From Desulfobacula sp. (GTDB taxonomy: Bacteria > Desulfobacterota > Desulfobacteria > Desulfobacterales > Desulfobacteraceae): a DNA stretch of 39,751 nucleotides. The notes beneath the pieces were generated by a model. The model was not told the DNA's origin. It did no database searches and worked only from the letters and a program-made list of their open reading frames with translations. A program made the translations under genes and the position numbers. Positions 26,916 through 38,346 of this stretch are shown here, piece by piece; position 1 is the stretch's first letter; every line of letters starts with the position of its first letter. The stretch lies in assembly GCA_013792075.1 (NCBI GenBank), contig VMSR01000281.1, forward strand, positions 1 through 39,751. The letters are read 5' to 3'.

Positions 26916-26946
26916 TGGTTTATATTACACATTTGGAATAGAAAAT

Positions 26947-28092
26947 ATGCAGCTTTCTGAACAGCAGATTGATTATTGTATGGAGTGCGGGGTTTGTACA
27001 GGATCTTGTCCCGTTGCCATGGAACTTGAGGGGTTTTCCCCCCGGCAGATGATCAAGCGCGCCATGAAGGAACCAGAAGGGGATATCCTCAACAGCCCGG
27101 ACTTGTGGGCGTGTCTTAGTTGTTCTCGGTGCTCGGACAGATGTCCTGTGGAAATCGATTTTCCCGCTTTTATCAGGGGGCTCAGGCAAAAGGCCCGGCA
27201 CAAGGACAACCTGCCGAAGTTAAGCCACCACGGGATGTTTCATACCATCACCCGTATCCAGGCCGCCCAAATCGGACAGAACAAAACCACCTCCCATGGA
27301 ACCAAACCGGACAGAATCGGCTGGGCCAAGGCTGCGGGAAAAATTTCAGAAACCGGGGACTATTTTTATTTTACCGGGTGCATTGCCTATTATGACCTGG
27401 CCTTTGAATACCTGGGGCTTCAGATGATCGAATCTGCCAAAAATAATTTGAAATTATTGAATAAAATGGGAATTGCGCCTGTTGTCAGCAATGACGAATG
27501 CTGCTGCGGCCATGATGCCTTCTGGTGCGGGGATGAAAACACCTTTGAAACCCTGGCCCAAAAAAATATGGAAACCATCAAAAAGAGTGGTGCCAAGACC
27601 GTAATCTTTGGATGCCCGGAAGGGTATTCCATGTTCAGGGAAGCTTATACAGAAAAATTTGGGCCCTTGCCCTTTGCGGTTCGCCATATTACAGATTTTC
27701 TGGCAGAAAAACTGCCGGACTCGGGTCTTTCCTTTAAGGCCGATTCTCCTGCCCGGGTCACCTTCCAGGATCCTTGTCGCCTGGGCCGTCGCTCGGGTAT
27801 CTATGAGGCGCCCCGGCAGTTGATCCAGATGGTTACCGACACCCATCTTGTTGAAATGGAACACAACAGGGAAAATGCCGTCTGCTGCGGCACCACGGCC
27901 TGGATGCAGTGTTCCTCCTGTTCAAAGGCCATGCAGATCCAGCGCCTTAAGGAGGCAGATGCTGCAGGGGCGACGGTCATTATCACGGCCTGTCCCAAAT
28001 GCCAGATCCATTTGACCTGTGCCAAGAAAAATACAGACCAGGATATCAAGATCATTGACCTTATCTCGTTTCTTGCTGACAACCTTGTTTAG
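26947..28092 (+). CDS. HdrCB fusion (HdrD-like) heterodisulfide reductase subunit
   Basis: A 381-residue protein. The HdrC-like N-part has two 4Fe-4S motifs, CMECGVCTGSCP (Cys11/14/17/21) and CLSCSRCSDRCP (Cys56/59/62/66). The HdrB-like remainder carries two CCG domains (NDECCCGHD near 185, AVCCGTTAW near 313, then CPKCQIHLTC). CCG domains hold the noncubane clusters that cleave disulfides in methanogen HdrB, so this is the likely disulfide-reducing site. ATG 26947 after GGAATAG is chosen; an upstream TTG reading (26881) adds residues without family features and crosses the leader hairpin. It is the first gene of the operon. The natural disulfide acceptor (CoM/CoB in methanogens) is unknown here. 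Confidence 0.9.
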   Translation: MQLSEQQIDYCMECGVCTGSCPVAMELEGFSPRQMIKRAMKEPEGDILNSPDLWACLSCSRCSDRCPVEIDFPAFIRGLRQKARHKDNLPKLSHHGMFHTITRIQAAQIGQNKTTSHGTKPDRIGWAKAAGKISETGDYFYFTGCIAYYDLAFEYLGLQMIESAKNNLKLLNKMGIAPVVSNDECCCGHDAFWCGDENTFETLAQKNMETIKKSGAKTVIFGCPEGYSMFREAYTEKFGPLPFAVRHITDFLAEKLPDSGLSFKADSPARVTFQDPCRLGRRSGIYEAPRQLIQMVTDTHLVEMEHNRENAVCCGTTAWMQCSSCSKAMQIQRLKEADAAGATVIITACPKCQIHLTCAKKNTDQDIKIIDLISFLADNLV

Positions 28093-28149: not shown

Positions 28150-31100
28150 ATGGCAACACCTAAAAATATTCATGGTTCGGTGATGGTGGTTGGTTCAGGG
28201 ATTTCCGGCATGCAGGCGGCCCTTGACCTGGCGGATTCGGGCTTTCTGGTTCACCTCATTGAAAAAGATGCCGCCATCGGCGGGGTCATGGCCCAGTTGG
28301 ACAAGACCTTTCCCACCAACGACTGCGCCATGTGAGTGATCTCACCCAAACTGGTCGAGGTCGGCCGGCACTTAAACATCAAGCTTCACACCCTTACAAC
28401 GGTACACACGGTTACAGGAGAGGAGGGTGATTTTACCGTATCCCTTCGACAGGCGCCAAGATATGTGGACATGGACAAGTGTATTGCCTGCGGGGAGTGC
28501 ACCAAAAAATGTCCGGGCAAAACCCCGGACAAATTCAATGAGGGGCTCGACAAACGAAAGGCCATTTATGTTCCCTATCCCCAGGCCGTCCCCTTAAAAT
28601 ATGCCATTGACCCGGCCATATGTCTCAAATTGATCAAGGACAAATGCGGGACCTGTGCCAAGGTTTGCCCCACCGGGGCCATTCATTATGAAGACACGGA
28701 TCGAGAGATTACCCTGAATGTGGGGTCCGTGATCATGGCAGCCGGTTTTACGCCCTTTGACCCTTCGGGGCTGGACAATTACCAATATGGCAATTTTCCC
28801 AATGTGGTTACCAGCATTGAATATGAACGCCTTTTGTCTGCCGGCGGCCCTACAATGGGTCACATTGAATGTTATCCGGACAAACATGCGCCCCAGAAGA
28901 TCGCCTGGCTCCAATGTGTGGGATCACGGGACCAGAACAAATGCGGCAATGCCTATTGCTCTTCGGTCTGCTGCATGTATGCGGTAAAAGAAGCCATGAT
29001 GACAAAGGACCATATTGACGGAGAATTCCAGGCCTCCATTTTTCTCATGGACATGAGAACCTTTGGAAAAGATTTTGAAAAGTATTATGAACGGGCAAAG
29101 GACCAGGGCGTTCGCTTTGTCCGGTCCAGGATCCATTCCATTACCGAGGATGCGGACAAAAAACTGATCTGCACCCATGTGAGTGAGGACGGAATAAACA
29201 TCACGGAAACCTTTGACATGGTGGTCTTGTCCGTGGGCATGGAAACGCCCAAGGACCTTGCCCAGACCGTCCGGGACATGGGCATTGAGCTCAATGCTAA
29301 TAATTTTGTTGAGACCCAGAGCTTTTCCCCGGTCAGCACGTCAAGAAAGGGCTTTTATGTGTGCGGCGCCCTCCAGGAACCCAAGGATATTCCCCTGGCT
29401 GTCATGGAAGCCTCTGCTGCAGCTTGTGATGCCGGAAGCCGTCTGGCAAAATCCCGGGGGACCCTGACCCAGACTCGCACCTATCCGACCGAGACGGATG
29501 TGGCCGGACAGGAAGCCCGCATCGGGGTTTTTGTCTGCAATTGCGGCACCAATATCGGCGGGATCGTGGACGTGCCGGCCGTGGCCGCCTATGCCAGAAC
29601 CCTGTCCCATGTGGCCTATGTGGAAGAGAACATGTTCACCTGTTCCCAGGATACCCAGGACAAGTTAAAGTTTGTGATCAAGGAAAACAGGCTGAACCGC
29701 ATCGTCATTGCCGCCTGCACCCCCCGGACCCATGAACCCCTGTTCCAGGAAACCCTCAAGGATGCCGGCTTAAATAAATATCTCATTGAGATGGCCAATA
29801 TCCGGAACCAATGCTCCTGGGTCCATTCCAAGGAACCGATCCTGGCCACAAAGAAAGCCTGCGATCTGGTCCGTATTGCTGTTGCAAAATCAGCGCTCAT
29901 GCACCCTTTGTCCCAGCCGACCGTAGCGGTTGTGCAAAAATGCCTTGTCATCGGCGGAGGGGTCACCGGCATCATCGCAGCCCTGGGCCTTGCCAATCAG
30001 GGGTTTTTCACAACTCTGGTGGAAAAAGACGAAGGTCTGGGTGGCAATGCCCTGTATCTGAACCAGACCTGGAAGGGCGAATCCATAGAAAAGAATCTGG
30101 CAGACCTCATAGGGCAGGTGGAAGAACATCCCCTGGTTGAGATACTGACCAATGCCCAGGTCACCGGGACTTCCGGATTTATCGGAAATTTTAAAACCGT
30201 TGTAAGTGTTGCTGCCAAAGAAAGGATCATCGACCACGGGGCTGTGATCATGGCCATTGGCGCAAAAGAGAGCAAGCCCGACGAATACCTGTATGGAAAG
30301 GACGAACGGGTGGTCACCCACCTGGAGCTGGATGCCGCATTTAGAAACAAGGAGAGTATGGTGGACGCCTGCCGATCGGCTGTGTTTATCCAGTGCGTGG
30401 GCTCCCGGGACAAGAACCGTCCCTATTGTTCCAAGGTCTGCTGCACCCATTCAATGAAATCGGCCCTTAAGCTCAAGGAAAAGAACCCGAAAATGGATGT
30501 CTATGTGCTCTATCGGGATATCCGGACCTATGGCCAGCGGGAACTGCTATACAAAGAGGCAAGGGATCGGGGAGTAATTTTTATCCGGTATACCCTGGAA
30601 CATAAACCGGTAGTGGAACGACAGACAGATTCTCTGATAATCCGGACCCGGGACCATATTCTGGGACTGCCCCTGGAAATTGAAACAGATCTTCTGGTAT
30701 TGGCATCTGCCATTGAACCCAGGGACAATTCTGCCCTGGCACAGATGTTCAAACTGACCCTGAACGATGACAATTTTTTCATGGAAGCCCATGCCAAGCT
30801 TCGGCCCGTTGATTTTGCCACGGACGGCATGTTCCTTGCGGGCATGGCCCATTATCCCAAGCCCATTGAAGAGAGTATTGCCCAGGCAAAGGCGGCGGTC
30901 TCAAGGGCCACAGTCGTCTTGTCCAAATCCAGCGTGGTGGTGGACGGGGTGGTTTCCTTTGTGAACAAAGCGTTGTGCCGGGGGTGCGGTGCCTGTGAAG
31001 ACACCTGTGCCTTTGGGGCCATTGAAATTTATGAAGATGAAAACAAGGCAAAATTTGCCCGGGTACAGCAGGCATTGTGCAAGGGCTGTGCTGCCTGTTC

Positions 31101-31182
31101 ATCTGCCTGCCCGACGGGTGCTGCCGGTGTTTTCCACTATGACAATGAAGTGCTGGCGATGGTTGAAGCCGCCCTTAATTAA
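28150..31182 (+). CDS. hdrA: Tandem HdrA fusion, selenoprotein (Sec62)
   Basis: 1010 residues when the in-frame TGA at 28333-28335 is read as selenocysteine 62 in NDCAMU-VISPK. Two HdrA modules are joined. Module 1 (~1-450) has the FAD fold GSGISG, ferredoxin motifs [12 protein letters not shown] and CGTCAKVCP, and WLQCVGSRD. Module 2 (from 457, [16 protein letters not shown]) has a second FAD fold (VIGGGVTG), FIQCVGSRD and C-terminal ferredoxin motifs [12 protein letters not shown] and [12 protein letters not shown]. HdrA is the flavin electron-bifurcating subunit. GGAG lies seven bases before the ATG. The paralogous split pair at 31689-34966 has the same UGA position, so this is not a sequencing error. 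Confidence 0.92.
28351..28368 (+). promoter_or_regulatory. SECIS-like hairpin for the hdrA UGA
   Basis: CTGGTC (28351-28356) and GGCCGG (28363-28368) pair, with G-T wobbles, around loop GAGGTC, exposing GGU as in bacterial SECIS elements bound by SelB. It starts 15 bases after the UGA at 28333-28335. Confidence 0.65.
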
Positions 31183-31195
31183 AAAGGATAGATCC

Positions 31196-31615
31196 ATGAA
31201 CGATTCGTTTGAGCCCCAGATTATTACCTTTGCCTGCAATTGGTGCTCCTATTCTGCAGCCGATCTTGCCGGTGTGAGCCGGTTTCAATACCCGCCCAAC
31301 ATGAGAATTATCCGGGTGATGTGTTCCGGGGGAATCAACCCCAACTACATCCTCAAGGCCTTTGAAAAGGGGGCGGACGGGGTGCTGGTCTCGGGCTGAC
31401 ACATCGGAGACTGCCATTACCTGGACGGTAATGTAAAAGCTGAAAAAACCTTTGGGATGACAAAAAAATTTCTGGGATTGCTGGGAATTGATCCGGCCCG
31501 GGTACAACTTGTGTGGATTTCGTCTGCCGAAGGCAATAAATTTGCACAGGTGGCCAATACGTTTACCAAGGAAATAAAAGAATTGGGCCCTGCCGGTATT
31601 AAACAGGTGGCCTGA
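31196..31615 (+). CDS. mvhD: MvhD/FlpD-type electron-transfer subunit, selenoprotein (Sec68)
   Basis: 139 residues with TGA 31397-31399 read as Sec68 in LVSGU-HIGDCHY, where homologues have GGCH. The [2Fe-2S] region [13 protein letters not shown] (Cys14, Cys17) and VMCSGGINP are intact. MvhD passes electrons from hydrogenase or formate dehydrogenase to HdrA. AAAGGATAG precedes ATG 31196, 13 bases after hdrA. The stop TGA 31613-31615 overlaps the next ATG. Stopping at the UGA would leave an unusually short 67-residue product and discard a conserved C-terminal half, so readthrough is strongly preferred. Confidence 0.92.
31415..31433 (+). promoter_or_regulatory. SECIS-like hairpin for the first mvhD UGA
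   Basis: CATTACC (31415-31421) and GGTAATG (31427-31433) are perfect complements around TGGAC. It starts 15 bases after the UGA. The same stem design recurs after the second UGA of the other mvhD. Confidence 0.65.
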
Positions 31616-31692
31616 TGGCAACCCTGAAAGCCTGGTCCGGAGAAAAACAAAAGTTGGAAGACTATATAGCGAAAACAGGAGGTAGATTGTGA
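31615..31692 (+). CDS. Candidate 25-residue coupled ORF between mvhD and hdrA
   Basis: ATG 31615 overlaps the mvhD stop (TGATG). The frame runs 25 codons (starting [20 protein letters not shown]) to a TGA at 31690-31692 that overlaps the GTG start of the next hdrA gene. Its 3' part contains the AGGAGG used by that gene. It could be a true micro-protein or only a coupling device that carries ribosomes to hdrA. No family is recognised. Confidence 0.42.
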
Positions 31693-33227
31693 CAACGGAT
31701 ATACTTGTCCTTGGTGGCGGTATTGCCGGGATTCAGAGTTCACTGGATCTGGCGGAAATGGGATTCAAGGTTCACCTGGTGGAAAGCCTGCCGTCCATTG
31801 GCGGGAAAATGGCCCAGCTGGACAAAACCTTTCCCACCAATGATTGTGCCATCTGAATTCTTTCGCCCAAGATGCTGGATGTCGGTCGACATCCTAATAT
31901 AGAGTTGATGGCCTATAGCGAGCTTATTAAACTTGATGGAAAGGTGGGGGATTTCATTGCCACCATCCGTAAAAAAGCACGCTTTGTGGAAGCGGACAAA
32001 TGCACGGGGTGCGGTGCCTGCACCGAGGTTTGTCCCACATCTGTCTCGGATCTCTACAATGAGGGCCATGCGGAAAGAAAGGCTGTTTATTCCTGGTTTG
32101 CCCAGGGTATCCCCTCCACCCATGTGCTGGATCCGGATCATTGCCGGGTGCTGACCGGAAAACGCTGCGGGATATGTCAGAAAAAATGTCAGGCCAATGC
32201 CATTAATTTTGAGCAGACGGATACACTGGTGGACCTTAACGTGGGCGCCATTGTGGTGGCAACGGGCTATGATATTTTTGATCCCGGTAAAATGCCGGAA
32301 TACCGGTATACGGAACTGGACAATGTGATCACGGCCATGGAGTTTGAACGGTTCTTGTCTGCTTCCGGCCCAACGGCAGGCCATATTGACCGGCCCTCGG
32401 ACCGGCGGGTAAAGCAGGAAATTGCAGAATTGTCCAAGCAGCTTAAAAAATCTAAGGCCGCTTTGGAGCGGTTTGAAAAAGCACACGCCCAGGATAGCTG
32501 TGATTTTTACAAGGACTTTGCCGCCAATACGCTTTTGCCCGGAGACGCCCTGGTAAAGGATGCAGACAAATGGGCGGCCAAATACCAGGCCCACCTTGAA
32601 ATCCAGGGGCCCTTGCAGGCACTTGAAAAACGCGCTGGAAAGTTCACCACAGCCAAAAAGCTTGCCTTTATCCAATGCGTGGGGTCCAGGGATTTGCGGT
32701 TTTATCCGTTTTGTTCCGGATATTGCTGCATGCATTCCATCAAGGAGGCCATCATTGCCCATGAACATGACAATGATACCCATTCCGTGATTTTCGGCAT
32801 GGATATCCGGGCGGTGGGCAAGGGGTTTGAAGAGTATAAAATCCGGGGGGGTAATAAGTCAAACATTGCGTATACCCGGTCCAGGGTGGCCGAGATCACC
32901 CGGGGGGAAGATGACAACCCTGTTCTGATCTATGAGGATACCATTGAACAAAAGGTGATAAAGCGGGCCTTTGATCTGGTGGTCCTGGCAACGGCCTGCG
33001 CCCCGGTGAAAAACACCCGGATGGTGGCAGATATATTGGGCATTGAGCTGGACCGGTTCGGGTTTTTCAAAACCGATCCGGCCGAACCATTGGACACCAC
33101 CAAGGAAGGCATTTTTGTATGCGGGTGTTCCCACAGTCCCATGGATATCCCTGAATCTGTTGCCCAGGCAAGTTCTGCTGCAGCCCGGGCCGTCCAGGCG
33201 GTCATGAAAAACAAAAAGGCATCATAA
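31689..33227 (+). CDS. hdrA: HdrA N-terminal-module protein, selenoprotein (Sec56), with insert
   Basis: 512 residues from GTG 31689 (AGGAGG at 31677-31682, six-base gap). TGA 31854-31856 is Sec56 in NDCAIU-ILSPK, matching Sec62 of the fused HdrA. It has the FAD fold LGGGIAGIQ, ferredoxin motifs [12 protein letters not shown] and CGICQKKCQ, and FIQCVGSRD. It corresponds to module 1 of the fused HdrA but carries an extra ~80 residues (~235-318) with a charged coiled-coil-like start ([20 protein letters not shown]). It resembles QmoA as well as HdrA. The C-module is the next gene, 14 bases on. Without Sec readthrough the first 55 residues would be lost from annotation. Confidence 0.91.
31877..31894 (+). 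promoter_or_regulatory. SECIS-like hairpin for the second hdrA UGA
   Basis: GGATGTC (31877-31883) and GACATCC (31888-31894) form a perfect 7-bp stem capped by GGTC, the best of the set. It starts 20 bases after the UGA. Confidence 0.72.
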
Positions 33228-33241
33228 GGAAAGCTTGGCTG

Positions 33242-34966
33242 ATGAGTGATACATTAGATAAAAATAAGTTGAAGACAAAGGGGTCGTGCATGGCTGAAGA
33301 ACCCAGGATAGGGGTGTTTGTCTGTGACTGCGGGTCCAATATCGCAGGACATCTGGACTGCCCGGATGTGGCCGAGTTTGTAAAATCTCTTCCCCATGTG
33401 GTCTATTCAAAGGAAAATCTCTATACCTGTTCGGAAGCCGGGATTGTGGAGATCAAAAAGGCCATCATAGAACAAAAACTGAACCGGGTGGTGGTGGCGT
33501 CCTGTTCTCCCAGAACCCATCATCCCCTGTTTGCCAGTTCCTGTGCCGAGGCAGGATTGAACCCGTATTTGTTTGAAATGGTCAATATCAGGGACCAATG
33601 TTCCTGGGTCCACATGGGCAATCGGGAAAAGGCCACCCAAAAGGCCAAAAATCTGATCCGCATGGGAGTTGCCAAGGCAGCCGGTTTGGAACCCCAAAAG
33701 GAAATCGAGTCTTCCCTGATCCGGAAGATTTTGGTCATCGGCGGCGGGATTGCAGGCCTGTCTGCAGCCCAGGCCCTGGCTGACATGGACCTTGAGATCA
33801 TTCTGGCTGAAAAACAAAGTCAATTGGGAGGCCTGCTTACAAAGGTGCATGCCCTTGAAACCGGCGGTACGGCACAGGCGCGTCTGGACAAAATTATCAC
33901 GGATGTGAACCTGCGGCCCAATGTTACCTGTTATACCCAGTCTGTGTTAAAGGAAACCAGCGGTTATATCGGAAATTTTGAGGTTACGCTTCAAACACCC
34001 GATGGCCTTGTGACGGAAAAAGTGGGCGCCATTGTGGTGGCCACGGGAGCCGTTCCTTTTATTCCGGAAGGGCTTTTCGGGTATGGAAACCCTGGGGCAT
34101 CCTCTGTCATTACCTTGATGGAATTGGAACAAAAATTTAAACAAGGTGTACTGGACACCCCTGATTTTAATCCCAAACGGGTGGTCTTTATCCAGTGCGT
34201 CGGTGCCCGGAACAAGACCCGGGAATATTGCTCCCGGATCTGCTGTATGATTGCGGTTAAAAATGCCATGCTTGTCAAGGAAAAATTTCCGTTAGCAGAT
34301 GTGCGGGTCCTGTATAGGGATATGCAGATGTATGGTGCCCAGAAGGAACAGATGCTGTGGGATGCCAGGGGCAAAGGGGTGCGCTTTGATGTGTATGACC
34401 CTGAAACGCCCCCCAAGGTTACCGACGGGCAGATTGAATTCTTCCAGACCGTCACCGGAAAGACCCTGAGCCTGGATACAGATCTTATCGTCCTGTCAAC
34501 CCCCCTGATCCCGGGTAGCAGTGCAGGCCAGCTGGCCAACCTGCTCCGGGTGCCGACAGACCAGAACGGATTTTTTCTGGAGGCCCATGCCAAGCTTCGG
34601 CCCCTTGATTTTGCGGCAGACGGTATCTTTGTGGCAGGGTCCGGCCGGTATCCGGCCACTGCAACCGAAAGCCGTACCCAGGGGATTGGGGTTGCCTCCC
34701 GTGTGGCCGCTATTCTGTTCAAGGAAAAGCTGATAAAAAGTGCCATTGTGGCAAAAATTAACCCTGATTCCTGTGTGGGCTGCATGGCCTGCCTGTCCAT
34801 GTGTCCCTATGGGGCCATTGCCTATAACAGGGCGCTGCGGGTTTGTGAAATCAATGAAATTTTGTGCAAGGGCTGCGGCAATTGTGCCGCCACCTGTCCC
34901 TCCCATTCAGCCCTGCTGGCAGGATATAAGCCCGGACAATTGCTGGCCCAGATAGGGGCCGCTTAG
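33242..34966 (+). CDS. hdrA: HdrA C-terminal-module protein
   Basis: 574 residues that align over their length with module 2 of the fused Hdr[17 protein letters not shown], then CSPRTHHPLF, FAD fold VIGGGIAGLSAAQ, FIQCVGARN, YCSRICCMIAVK, and C-terminal ferredoxin motifs CVGCMACLSMCP and CKGCGNCAATCP. It has no UGA. Start ATG 33242 follows AAGGA in the stop region of the previous gene; ATG 33290 (AAGGGG upstream) is an alternative that would remove 16 variable residues. Together with the preceding gene it would rebuild a complete tandem HdrA as two chains. Confidence 0.9.
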   Translation: MSDTLDKNKLKTKGSCMAEEPRIGVFVCDCGSNIAGHLDCPDVAEFVKSLPHVVYSKENLYTCSEAGIVEIKKAIIEQKLNRVVVASCSPRTHHPLFASSCAEAGLNPYLFEMVNIRDQCSWVHMGNREKATQKAKNLIRMGVAKAAGLEPQKEIESSLIRKILVIGGGIAGLSAAQALADMDLEIILAEKQSQLGGLLTKVHALETGGTAQARLDKIITDVNLRPNVTCYTQSVLKETSGYIGNFEVTLQTPDGLVTEKVGAIVVATGAVPFIPEGLFGYGNPGASSVITLMELEQKFKQGVLDTPDFNPKRVVFIQCVGARNKTREYCSRICCMIAVKNAMLVKEKFPLADVRVLYRDMQMYGAQKEQMLWDARGKGVRFDVYDPETPPKVTDGQIEFFQTVTGKTLSLDTDLIVLSTPLIPGSSAGQLANLLRVPTDQNGFFLEAHAKLRPLDFAADGIFVAGSGRYPATATESRTQGIGVASRVAAILFKEKLIKSAIVAKINPDSCVGCMACLSMCPYGAIAYNRALRVCEINEILCKGCGNCAATCPSHSALLAGYKPGQLLAQIGAA

Positions 34967-35024
34967 ATGAACGGTGGATGACCCAAAAAAATGGTACTTT
35001 TTGAATATATAAAGGATTGTCGTA

Positions 35025-35465
35025 ATGAGTGATCAAAATTTTGAGCCCAATATTATCTGCTTTTTGTGCACCTGGTGAGCATATGCCGCTGCTGACCTGG
35101 CTGGGGTCAGTCGTATGCAGTACCCGGCAAATATCCGTATTATCCGGGTCATGTGTTCCGGAAGCGTCTCGCCGCACCATGTGCTCAGGGCCTTCCAACA
35201 GGGGGTGGACGGTGTGTTTGTGGGCGGCTGACATCTGGGTGAATGCAATTACCTGTATGGTAATTATTCCACGGAGAAAAGGGTGACCCTCTTGTCACAA
35301 GTGCTGGATTTTTGCGGGGTTGAACGCGAAAGACTTCGTGCCCGCTGGGTATCTTCTGCCGAGGCACCTGAGTTTGTTGAAGAGGTGAACAGCTTTATTG
35401 ATGCCTTAAAAACACTGGGGCCATCGCCTTTAAAAGCGAAAACCGCCAAAATGGGTGTATCATGA
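35025..35465 (+). CDS. mvhD: MvhD-type subunit with two selenocysteines (Sec18, Sec69)
   Basis: 146 residues if both in-frame TGA codons are read as Sec. TGA 35076-35078 gives Sec18 in [16 protein letters not shown], exactly where the paralogue at 31196 has Cys17 of CNWC. TGA 35229-35231 gives Sec69 in VGGU-HLGECNY, matching Sec68 of the paralogue. The rest of the family pattern ([18 protein letters not shown]) is intact. Start ATG 35025 has AAAGGA eight bases upstream, and its stop overlaps the next gene (ATGA). One Sec would therefore replace a putative [2Fe-2S] cysteine ligand, which is unusual. A conventional gene finder would miss the gene. Confidence 0.9.
35079..35118 (+). promoter_or_regulatory. 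SECIS-like structure for the first UGA of the second mvhD
   Basis: The inner stem CTGACC (35092-35097) / GGTCAG (35105-35110) has loop TGGCTGG. An outer pairing GCATA (35079-35083) / TATGC (35114-35118) starts immediately after the UGA. Confidence 0.6.
35247..35265 (+). promoter_or_regulatory. SECIS-like hairpin for the second UGA of the second mvhD
   Basis: AATTACC (35247-35253) and GGTAATT (35259-35265) are perfect complements around TGTAT, 15 bases after the UGA. Stem size and spacing equal those of the first mvhD. Confidence 0.6.
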
Positions 35466-36289
35466 TTGATATGGTAAAAGAAAAGATAGAAGCGCTTTTT
35501 AAGGAAAAAAAGATCGCGGGTTTCCTGGGGCTTCGGGAGCAGAACGGCCAGGTGGCTCCCCATTTGTTCATGGAGGGGCAGGCGCTGGAAGGAATGTGCC
35601 TGGGCGACAGAAAAATTGCCGGAGATGCCCGTTATCCGTTGAACAAAATATTGGTTACCCTTGCCAGGCAATATCCGGAAGAGACTTTCGGGATTCTTGC
35701 CAGGGGCTGTGATGAAAGAGGGCTGTACGGGCTTTTCCGCCTGAACCAGCTGGACCCGGATAAGGTAATCGCTGTGGGCATTGCCTGTCCAGGGGATCTG
35801 GCCCTGGCCTGTGAATGTAAAAAACCATTTCCCGAGGCCCTTGTGGCAGGGGAAAAAATTCAAGCTGGGGATTCCATAAAAGCAGGCCGGGAAACACTGG
35901 CGGCCATGGACACACTGGATCTGGACAAGCGCTTTTCCTTCTGGAAAAATCAGTTTTCAAAATGTGTCAAATGCTATGGGTGCCGGGATATCTGCCCCAT
36001 GTGCTTTTGCAGGGAATGTAGCCTGGAATGTGAAGATCTTGTTTCCAAGGGGGATCTGCCCGTGGATATTCCGGTCTTTCATCTGACCCGGGCCATGCAC
36101 ATGGCAGACAGGTGTGTGGACTGCGGGCTTTGTGATGAGGCTTGTCCGGCAGACATCCCTTTGCGCCTGCTCTACAAGAAAACCGCCCAGATCATGGACA
36201 TTGAATTCGGATTCACCTCGGGCATCAATAAAGATGAACGCTCGCCATTGAGCATGATGGGGCCGGCCCCCAAAAAAGTGGCCAAATAA
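35462..36289 (+). CDS. FrhB/FdhB-like iron-sulfur subunit of formate dehydrogenase
   Basis: A 275-residue protein. The N-part (~1-150) resembles the FrhB/FdhB fold of F420-type hydrogenase and formate dehydrogenase beta subunits. The C-part carries two Fe-S motifs: KCVKCYGCRDICPMCFCREC (near 165) and CVDCGLCDEACPADIP (near 220). It should connect FdhA to MvhD. The ATG overlaps the mvhD stop, and fdhA follows 17 bases later, so the three gene products are probably made in proportion. Whether a flavin is bound cannot be told. Confidence 0.85.
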   Translation: MIDMVKEKIEALFKEKKIAGFLGLREQNGQVAPHLFMEGQALEGMCLGDRKIAGDARYPLNKILVTLARQYPEETFGILARGCDERGLYGLFRLNQLDPDKVIAVGIACPGDLALACECKKPFPEALVAGEKIQAGDSIKAGRETLAAMDTLDLDKRFSFWKNQFSKCVKCYGCRDICPMCFCRECSLECEDLVSKGDLPVDIPVFHLTRAMHMADRCVDCGLCDEACPADIPLRLLYKKTAQIMDIEFGFTSGINKDERSPLSMMGPAPKKVAK

Positions 36290-36306
36290 GGCATGTGAGG
36301 AAATAA

Positions 36307-38346
36307 ATGGATTACCAGAATATTTTAACAACCTGTACCTATTGCGGATGCGGGTGTAATTTTTTTCTTGAGGTGCTGGACGGGAAACTGGTGGGAACCA
36401 TTCCCTGTAAAACAAGTCCTGTGAACGAGGGCAAGCTGTGTATCAAAGGATGGAATGTGCATCAGTTTGTCCAGAGTGAAAACCGTCTCACCCATCCCAT
36501 GATCCGTAAAAACGGGGTGCTGGAAAAGGTGTCCTGGGACGAAGCCTTTGATTACACAGCATCCAGGCTTTCCGAAATTAAAGCCGAAAAGGGCAGTGAC
36601 GCCATTGGGTTTTTGACATCGGCCAAGGTCACCAATGAGGAAAATTATCTGTTGCAGAAATTTGCAAGGGCAGGGGTCGGGACCAACAATATCGATCACT
36701 GCGCCCGGCTCTGACATTCTTCCACCGTGGCAGGTCTTGCCGCAGCATTTGGAAGTGGTGCCATGACAAACGGGGTTGCCGAGCTTGAAGGTTCGGATGC
36801 CATTTTTATCATCGGCTCCAACACCGCTACTTCCCACCCTCTGGTGGCCACACGGATTTTCAGGGCCATTGAAAACGGGGCAAAGGTTTTGGTGGCAGAT
36901 CCGAGAAAAAATCAGATTGCGCAATTTGCCCATCTCTACGTCCGCCACAAACCTGGCACAGATGTGGCCCTGTTGAACGGGATGATGAAAGTGATTCTGG
37001 ACAGGGGACTTGCCGACCGGGCATTTATTGACGCCAACACCGAAGGGTTTACCGAGTTTAAAACCCTCATCGACCAGGTCTCCTTAGAAGACTGCGCCGC
37101 CATTACAGGGGTGCCTGTCTCCCAGATAGAGGAACTTGCACAGATTTACGGCAAGGCCGACCGGGGTTCCATTGTCTATTGCATGGGCATCACCCAGCAC
37201 ACCAATGGGGTGAACAATGTAAAATCTCTGGCCAATCTGGCCATGGTCACGGGAAACATCGGCCGGGAAGGAACGGGTGTCAATCCTTTGCGGGGCCAGA
37301 ACAATGTCCAGGGCGCCTGTGACATGGGGGGCCTGCCCAATGTGTTTCCCGGGTACCAGCCGGTAACTCTCGGGGCTGCCAGCAAAAAATTTGCCGATGC
37401 CTGGGGAAAGGACACCCTGCCCACAAACATCGGGCTGACCATACCGGAAATGTTCAGCGCCATTGAAAAAGATAAGATGCAGGGATTGTGGATCATGGGG
37501 GAAAACCCCGTTGTTTCGGATCCCGATGCCGATCATGTGAAAAAAGCCCTTGAAGACATTGAATTTCTGGTGGTCCAGGATATTTTCATGACCCCGACAG
37601 CCAGGCTTGCCGACGTGGTATTGCCCGGAGCCTCTTTTGCGGAAAAGGACGGCACCTTTGCCAATACGGAGCGGCGGGTGATGCGGGTCCGAAAAGCAAT
37701 CGATCCTGTTGGCGAATCAAAGGCCGACTGGGAAATCATCCAGGAAATTTCAACTCGGTTCGGCTTGTCCATGGCCTATGCAGGTCCCAGTGAAATTTTT
37801 GACGAGATTGCCCGGCTCACCCCTTCCTACAGCGGCATCTCCTATGACCGCCTGGAAGGGGACGGTATCCAGTGGCCCTGTCCCACCCCGGCCCATCCCG
37901 GAACCCCCTATCTGCACAAGGACGGGCATTTCACCCGGGGTAAGGGATTGTTCCATGCCGTTGAATACAAGGGACCTGCCGAAGTGGTGGACGAAGCCTA
38001 TCCCTTTTGGATGACCACAGGAAGGGTTTATGCCCATTACCACACCGGCACCATGACACGGAATTCTGCGGCCCTGGACAGGGAAGTGTCGGAAGGCTTT
38101 CTTGAAATCAACCCTGCAGATGCGGCTGCCCTTGACATCCTGGACGGCCAGAAAATCTGTGTGGCCTCCCGCAGGGGAGAGATTGAAACCCGGATCATGA
38201 TCACCGACCGGGTGGAAAAGGGGGTGGTTTTCATGCCCTTCCATTTTGAAGAAGCCAATGTCAATAAACTGACCAACCCGGCCTATGACCCCATTGCCAA
38301 GATACCGGAACTAAAGGTCTGTGCCGTAAGCCTTACCAAAGTCTAA
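36307..38346 (+). CDS. fdhA: Formate dehydrogenase catalytic subunit, selenoprotein (Sec136)
   Basis: 679 residues with TGA 36712-36714 as Sec136 in DHCARLU-HSSTVAGL, the Mo/W ligand site of selenium formate dehydrogenases. The N-terminal [4Fe-4S] motif CTYCGCGCN...CIKG is present; there is no NuoG-like ferredoxin extension. Downstream, GSNTATSHPL, MGITQHTNGV, GNIGREGTGVNPLRGQNNVQ and the C-terminal molybdopterin-binding domain (TTGRVYAHYHTGTMTRNS) are typical. There is no signal peptide, so it is cytoplasmic. GAGGAAAT is five bases before the ATG. It is the last gene of the operon; no clear terminator separates it from the convergent hydrolase gene. Confidence 0.95.
36727..36743 (+). promoter_or_regulatory. 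SECIS hairpin of fdhA
   Basis: GTGGCA (36727-36732) and TGCCGC (36738-36743) pair around GGTCT, the same apical loop known from the E. coli fdhF SECIS. It starts 12 bases after the UGA. Confidence 0.78.

Follow-up and report, generated by a model that had tools for sequence, protein, structure and literature searches.

A predicted double-selenocysteine MvhD in a formate dehydrogenase-Hdr type locus of Desulfobacula, with its second selenocysteine probably at the [2Fe-2S] cluster

The question of why anaerobes place selenium in electron-relay subunits is raised by mvhD2, a gene in the window analyzed here (39,751 nt of Desulfobacula sp. DNA, contig VMSR01000281.1 of assembly GCA_013792075.1; all positions refer to this stretch unless stated otherwise). 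A sequence-only reading of the window had noted two selenocysteine (Sec) codons and a CxxU pair in an MvhD at 35025-35465. Are both UGA codons genuine, and which of the two Sec residues would touch the iron-sulfur cluster?

mvhD2 and its locus

The gene and its two internal UGA codons are as follows.

35025..35465, plus strand: mvhD2, MvhD/FlpD electron-transfer subunit, 146 aa, with Sec18 and Sec69
35076..35078, plus strand: in-frame TGA, UGA codon 18 (Sec18 of CTWU)
35229..35231, plus strand: in-frame TGA, UGA codon 69 (Sec69 of GUHLGEC)

With TGA translated as Sec, the protein contains the motif C15-T-W-U18, plus U69. The terminal stop is also TGA (35463-35465) and overlaps, within ATGA at 35462-35465, an ATG able to start the next gene. 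The protein is a full-length match to PF02662 (176.6 bits against a cut-off of 22.3, profile positions 1 to 123 of 123). It scored 145.8 bits with NF045873 (F420_non_VhuD), under the curated cut-off of 215, and is not classed as a VhuD by this measure. An AF2 model (mean pLDDT, 94.2; helix at residues 19 to 28) superposed on chain 5odc_D with a TM score of 0.90 (Z 24.1, rmsd 1.1 over 138 residues), and the two sequences matched in phmmer at 8.7e-48. The reading frame was thus confirmed as a full-length MvhD with predicted Sec at codons 18 and 69, and it has the CxxU motif and two in-frame UGAs of the Sec-containing MvhD/VhuD selenoproteins.

The neighboring genes are listed below.

26935..28092, plus strand: HdrC/HdrB-like fusion (4Fe-4S dicluster and CCG domains; PF02754, 86.8 bits; PF13183, 39.7 bits; start approximate)
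28150..31182, plus strand: HdrA-like, 1010 aa, in-frame UGA at 28333-28335 (NF040770 HdrA2, 966 bits, under the cut-off of 1100)
31196..31615, plus strand: mvhD1, CNWC and one Sec (UGA at 31397-31399; PF02662, 185.8 bits)
31689..33227, plus strand: HdrA-like, 512 aa, in-frame UGA at 31854-31856 (NF040770, 491 bits, below the cut-off)
33293..34966, plus strand: HdrA-like, 557 aa as searched, start approximate (NF040770, 487 bits, below the cut-off)
35462..36289, plus strand: iron-sulfur protein in the FdhB position (PF13187, 29.8 bits against a cut-off of 27)
36307..38346, plus strand: FdhA, formate dehydrogenase alpha subunit, in-frame UGA at 36712-36714 (TIGR01591, 876.5 bits, cut-off 666)

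Candidate genes for FdhA, FdhB, MvhD, and HdrA occur together, as for a formate dehydrogenase-Hdr complex; FdhB is named from its place, Fer4 domains being the only matches of that protein, and the HdrA assignments are below the model cut-offs. The hdrA-mvhD-fdhB order is conserved among double-Sec loci: an hdrA-like gene adjoins mvhD in 42 of 42, and 38 have a gene in the fdhB position after mvhD. Among the remaining four, the sequence of L059, L093, and L099 ends before that point, and in L124 no such gene was found within about 1 kb. Two further features of the window were observed. The run from 28150 to 38346 contains six in-frame Sec-type UGAs in five genes (two hdrA-like genes, mvhD1, mvhD2 with two, and fdhA), and in each of the adjacent 512-aa and 557-aa HdrA-like open reading frames (31689-34966) the best-matching stretch corresponds to part of the HdrA2 model.

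Sec18 was proposed earlier to replace a Cys kept by the paralogue in the same operon, and this holds: mvhD2 has CTWU where mvhD1 has CNWC. The pair was also put forward as a natural comparison. It exists, yet the two proteins are 50% identical and mvhD1 has its own second-site UGA, followed by a hairpin ATTACC-N5-GGTAAT at 31416-31432.

The host is probably a sulfate-reducing member of the Desulfobacterota. Its genome (5.3 Mb, 308 contigs) encodes Sec machinery, with selB (347 bits) over the cut-off and tRNA-Sec (76.9 bits) over the gathering score. Eight of the nine closest paralogues in the genome were readable at both sites; CxxU was present in three and Sec at the second site in four, and among those read the two occurred together only in mvhD2. 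In the host, L007 (contig C157, 6638-7057) represents a distinct type of MvhD that has CxYU and GCLEGEC, and similar proteins, such as L217 and L221, are present in the FlpD sample described below.

Evidence that both UGA codons are genuine

Orthologues with two TGAs (66% identity or more) were found in 25 of 86 genomes of the family, including that of mvhD2. The 24 from other family genomes (L022 and L032 among them) have TGAs at the identical two codons. More double-Sec orthologues, outside the family too, were present in 395 genomes drawn from the phylum. The 29 loci newly taken from this draw comprised 9 UU, 10 CC, 7 CU, and 3 UC genes, where the letters give Cys (C) or Sec (U) at residues 18 and 69. 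Genomes of named species were scanned with the pattern CxWU-x-Y-xx-[AG]D-x-AG, giving at least 118 matches on at least 117 stretches. L128, which is not an MvhD, and seven matches cut or masked at site 69 were set aside. Among the 110 listed matches left, at least 11 were double-Sec, two of them (L118 and L132) from genomes already in the sample. The listed matches include Geobacter, Geomonas, Bacillota, and Chloroflexi records, and no archaeon was named among them. With a wider pattern, 24 of 30 genomes, the host included, gave a match, while the reversed-pattern control matched in 0 of 30.

A quick tree (LG+G4) was built with columns 12, 16, 18, and 69 left out. A correlation between Sec18 and Sec69 was not shown on this tree, since 5 and 10 changes, with 4 independent pairs on starred branches, left the sign test without power. 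Two nearby residues also varied with residue 18. At residue 16 (codon 35070-35072), N predominated when residue 18 was Cys (38 of 41 C18 rows versus 16 of 145 U18 rows), and Sec18 usually came with T, H, or Q; in the 102-domain FlpD sample, N occurred in 32 of 47 domains with Cys18 versus 6 of 27 with Sec18 (Fisher P = 2e-4). No usable pair on the tree ran contrary to this association, the pairs being too few for significance, and we regard it as a lead only. An extra Cys at residue 12 (35058-35060 in mvhD2), three residues before Cys15, was found in 34 of 145 U18 rows and 1 of 41 C18 rows.

Bacterial Sec insertion is directed by a stem-loop immediately downstream of the UGA codon. A candidate for such a structure lies directly after each UGA of mvhD2, despite weak folding energies.

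35091..35111, plus strand: SECIS-like hairpin of UGA18, 8-bp stem GCTGACCT/GGGTCAGT, loop GGCTG
35248..35264, plus strand: SECIS-like hairpin of UGA69, ATTACC-TGTAT-GGTAAT, 16 nt past the UGA

For mvhD2 alone, the native sequence was equaled or exceeded in stability by 2.9% of synonymous shuffles at site 18 and by 6.9% at site 69. Across related genes, the site-69 hairpin ATTACC-N5-GGTAAT, scored at a fixed distance of 19 nt from the first base of codon 69, was present in 65 of 66 Sec69 genes versus 0 of 120 Cys69 genes (UU, 41 of 42; CU, 24 of 24; UC, 0 of 103; CC, 0 of 17). Among the 120 Cys69 genes that lack it, 43 encode the identical residues, [NH]Y..GN. Within the set studied, this nearly perfect hairpin offers a simple DNA test for Sec versus Cys genes. 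Consensus (alifold) and single-sequence energies at site 69 were no better than those of column-wise synonymous shuffles because the stem hardly varies.

At site 18, RNAalifold folding of 20 distinct UU sequences gave a consensus stem that 0 of 200 synonymous shuffles equaled in stability, and a repeat run agreed. Codon choice in this region also followed residue 18: Ala26 was GCT in 123 of 145 U18 genes versus 5 of 41 C18 genes (Fisher P = 5e-18, with rows that are not independent), and Gly27 was GGR in 131 of 145 versus 20 of 41, in rows that share history. Most of the 145 U18 rows come from the CxWU pattern search. The CU class, which has Cys18, also showed a weak site-18 consensus fold (3 of 200 shuffles as stable), and its single-sequence excess (z = -2.9) matched those of the Sec18 classes (-2.7 and -2.4). 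Consensus folding found no common site-18 structure in the CxWU, Cys69 class. A single consensus fold for all U18 genes failed, as the classes share no one structure. Scans of the window with Rfam gathering thresholds and for tRNAs gave no match.

Substitution patterns were compared in 40 double-Sec rows more than 60% identical. Codons 6 to 17 contained no stops in 40 of 40 rows, with a mean pN of 0.126 versus a pS of 0.781. Median dN/dS was 0.085 for codons 19 to 68 (762 of 780 pairs unsaturated) and 0.142 for codons 70 to 128 (489 of 780 pairs unsaturated). These values indicate purifying selection on all three segments of mvhD2.

The two-Sec reading would fail if UGA18 or UGA69 were an error or a degraded codon, or if translation began downstream of codon 18; together these possibilities are extremely improbable. 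A read error, which the sequence-only reading had named for position 35076 as grounds for giving up its claim, is very unlikely because so many family genomes carry a two-TGA orthologue with the same codons. A pseudogene or degraded codon was rejected in view of the selection across the three tested segments and the SECIS-like signals after both UGAs. A late start, the other ground that had been named, is disfavored by the constraint on codons 6 to 17. In mvhD2 the next in-frame ATG, GTG, or TTG codons before codon 45 are ATG 31 and ATG 43, both past Cys15.

Candidate cluster ligands and the place of Sec18

Proteins commonly bind a [2Fe-2S] cluster through four ligands, and MvhD has five family-typical Cys positions. 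By analogy with solved relatives, the mvhD2 protein would hold one [2Fe-2S] cluster, and its candidate ligand positions are all Cys or Sec. Natural variation at the five positions was read from 102 FlpD domains that were chosen, not random: two divergent host paralogues and 100 translated stretches from the matches listed (50 non-host TGA rows, and 30 lower-scoring and 20 higher-scoring stretches without TGA). Positions 15, 44, and 74 were Cys in 102 of 102 domains, and position 69 was Cys in 79 and Sec in 23. Position 18 was Cys in 47 and Sec in 27; in the other 28 it was neither (Asp in 16, Ser in 6, Gly in 5, and Met in 1). The two host paralogues have CNWS and CERS at the 15-18 motif and keep the other four Cys. 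Asp or Ser at position 18 could bind iron themselves; the five Gly and one Met domains escape that objection. Since four ligands are usual and positions 15, 44, 69, and 74 are invariantly Cys or Sec, these four form the natural set and position 18 is the extra one. Sec69 is therefore the likelier ligand and Sec18 an adjacent residue, which reverses the earlier emphasis on Sec18.

In L264, L274 to L282, L284, L285, L287, L288, and L291, CxxC is replaced by CEND while the other four Cys remain; these FlpD domains sit in open frames of about 710 to 910 residues. The cluster or the function of the divergent FlpD domains may not be that of MvhD.

Sec18 had originally been placed at a [2Fe-2S] ligand or at an adjacent redox site. 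That Sec18 is itself a ligand, with one of the other four conserved residues as the spare, is unlikely. CxxC pairs often bind clusters, and residue 18 is Cys or Sec in 186 of 186 typical MvhD rows, though the search expression demanded that; against a ligand role stand the 28 chosen FlpD domains in which residue 18 varies while the other four positions do not. The adjacent site fits better. A further reading would make Sec18 a reversible redox switch, forming a selenenyl-sulfide with Cys15 or another thiol in the manner of a thioredoxin-like CxxU. CxxU does mark a number of selenoprotein families akin to thiol oxidoreductases (PMC2398784, Table 2 and text), but Cys15, invariant in the 102 domains, is a strong ligand candidate, and the mvhD2 model resembles MvhD and then, far lower, mainly lumazine synthases. 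No thioredoxin appears among the 50 structure matches listed, which is no exclusion. We consider the switch improbable, more so than a ligand role for Sec18.

The reading we prefer, and judge likely, is that the product of mvhD2 is the MvhD subunit of an electron-transfer complex of the formate dehydrogenase-Hdr type and has Sec at two of the five family-typical Cys positions, residues 15, 44, 69, and 74 being the ligands and Sec18 lying beside the cluster. A single [2Fe-2S] cluster would pass electrons between the formate dehydrogenase arm and the FAD of HdrA, as in solved relatives. On the evidence of natural variation, residues 15, 44, 69, and 74 would hold this cluster, and Sec69 would probably place its selenolate at one of these ligand positions. 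Sec18, which follows Cys15 by three residues and immediately precedes the first helix, is probably not a ligand but a neighboring fifth residue; it would most likely tune the potential of the cluster or electron transfer, or protect the cluster, without binding iron. We infer the ligands from conservation and, in a second step, the tuned potential from the ligands.

More tentatively, with the chances a little short of even, Sec69 may ligate a biological [2Fe-2S] cluster as a native selenolate, with Sec18 as an independent selenolate in the second sphere of the same cluster. If so, the CC, CU, UC, and UU proteins would form a natural double-mutant cycle in one bifurcating relay, and the effect of selenium on the cluster would be separable from that of selenium beside it. 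Related proteins with the same partner genes but a difference at either or both positions would allow the effect of selenium at the likely ligand and at its neighbor to be measured apart.

Comparison with known systems

Sec-containing MvhD proteins have been described before. Table 1 of a 2026 review lists MvhD/VhuD as a CxxU protein with two Sec (WP_012980414.1), and its text mentions multiple Sec in some archaeal FrhD/VhuD (PMC13188914); FrhD with CxxU was already listed in a 2008 survey (PMC2398784, Table 2). Sec-containing mvhD genes are reported for Desulfobacterium autotrophicum HRM2 (mvhD1, 2, 3, and 5; PMC2702500) and Desulfococcus multivorans (PMC5109826). A literature search over text passages found no statement of which MvhD residues bind the cluster and no bacterial double-Sec MvhD, which is not proof of absence; 2007 work on Olavius symbionts might describe such a protein.

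With the Sec-containing MvhD/VhuD (FrhD) family of the review (PMC13188914), mvhD2 shares PF02662, CxxU, two Sec, and an operon with hdrA. The multi-Sec proteins of the review text are some archaeal FrhD/VhuD, whereas mvhD2 belongs to a Desulfobacterota clade with a predicted hairpin directly after each UGA. WP_012980414.1 is compared here by its listed motif and number of Sec. In the marine sulfate reducer D. autotrophicum HRM2, loci with hdr, mvhD, fdhB, and fdhA are described (PMC2702500); its mvhD genes resemble mvhD2 in the presence of Sec.

In published complexes, the [2Fe-2S] cluster of MvhD lies between the donor arm and the HdrA FAD (PMC12350162, PMC6019823), and we infer the same role for mvhD2 by analogy. 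The fold and five Cys positions are shared with 5odc_D (MvhD of Methanothermococcus thermolithotrophicus) and with 7bkb_F (Methanospirillum hungatei), which belongs to a formate dehydrogenase-Hdr complex. Residues 15, 18, 44, 69, and 74 correspond to Cys13, Cys16, Cys42, Cys67, and Cys72 of 5odc_D. Five aligned MvhD chains of solved structure have Cys at all five positions and CNWC, whereas mvhD2 has CTWU. The two-Sec CxxU MvhD is thus already a listed kind, of which mvhD2 is a further member. New here are a clade of predicted double-Sec MvhD in the Desulfobacterota and the occurrence of all four Cys/Sec combinations (CC, CU, UC, and UU) among related genes. Also new is a corrected mechanism, in which the pattern of conservation suggests that the second Sec, residue 69, rather than Sec18 touches the iron-sulfur cluster.
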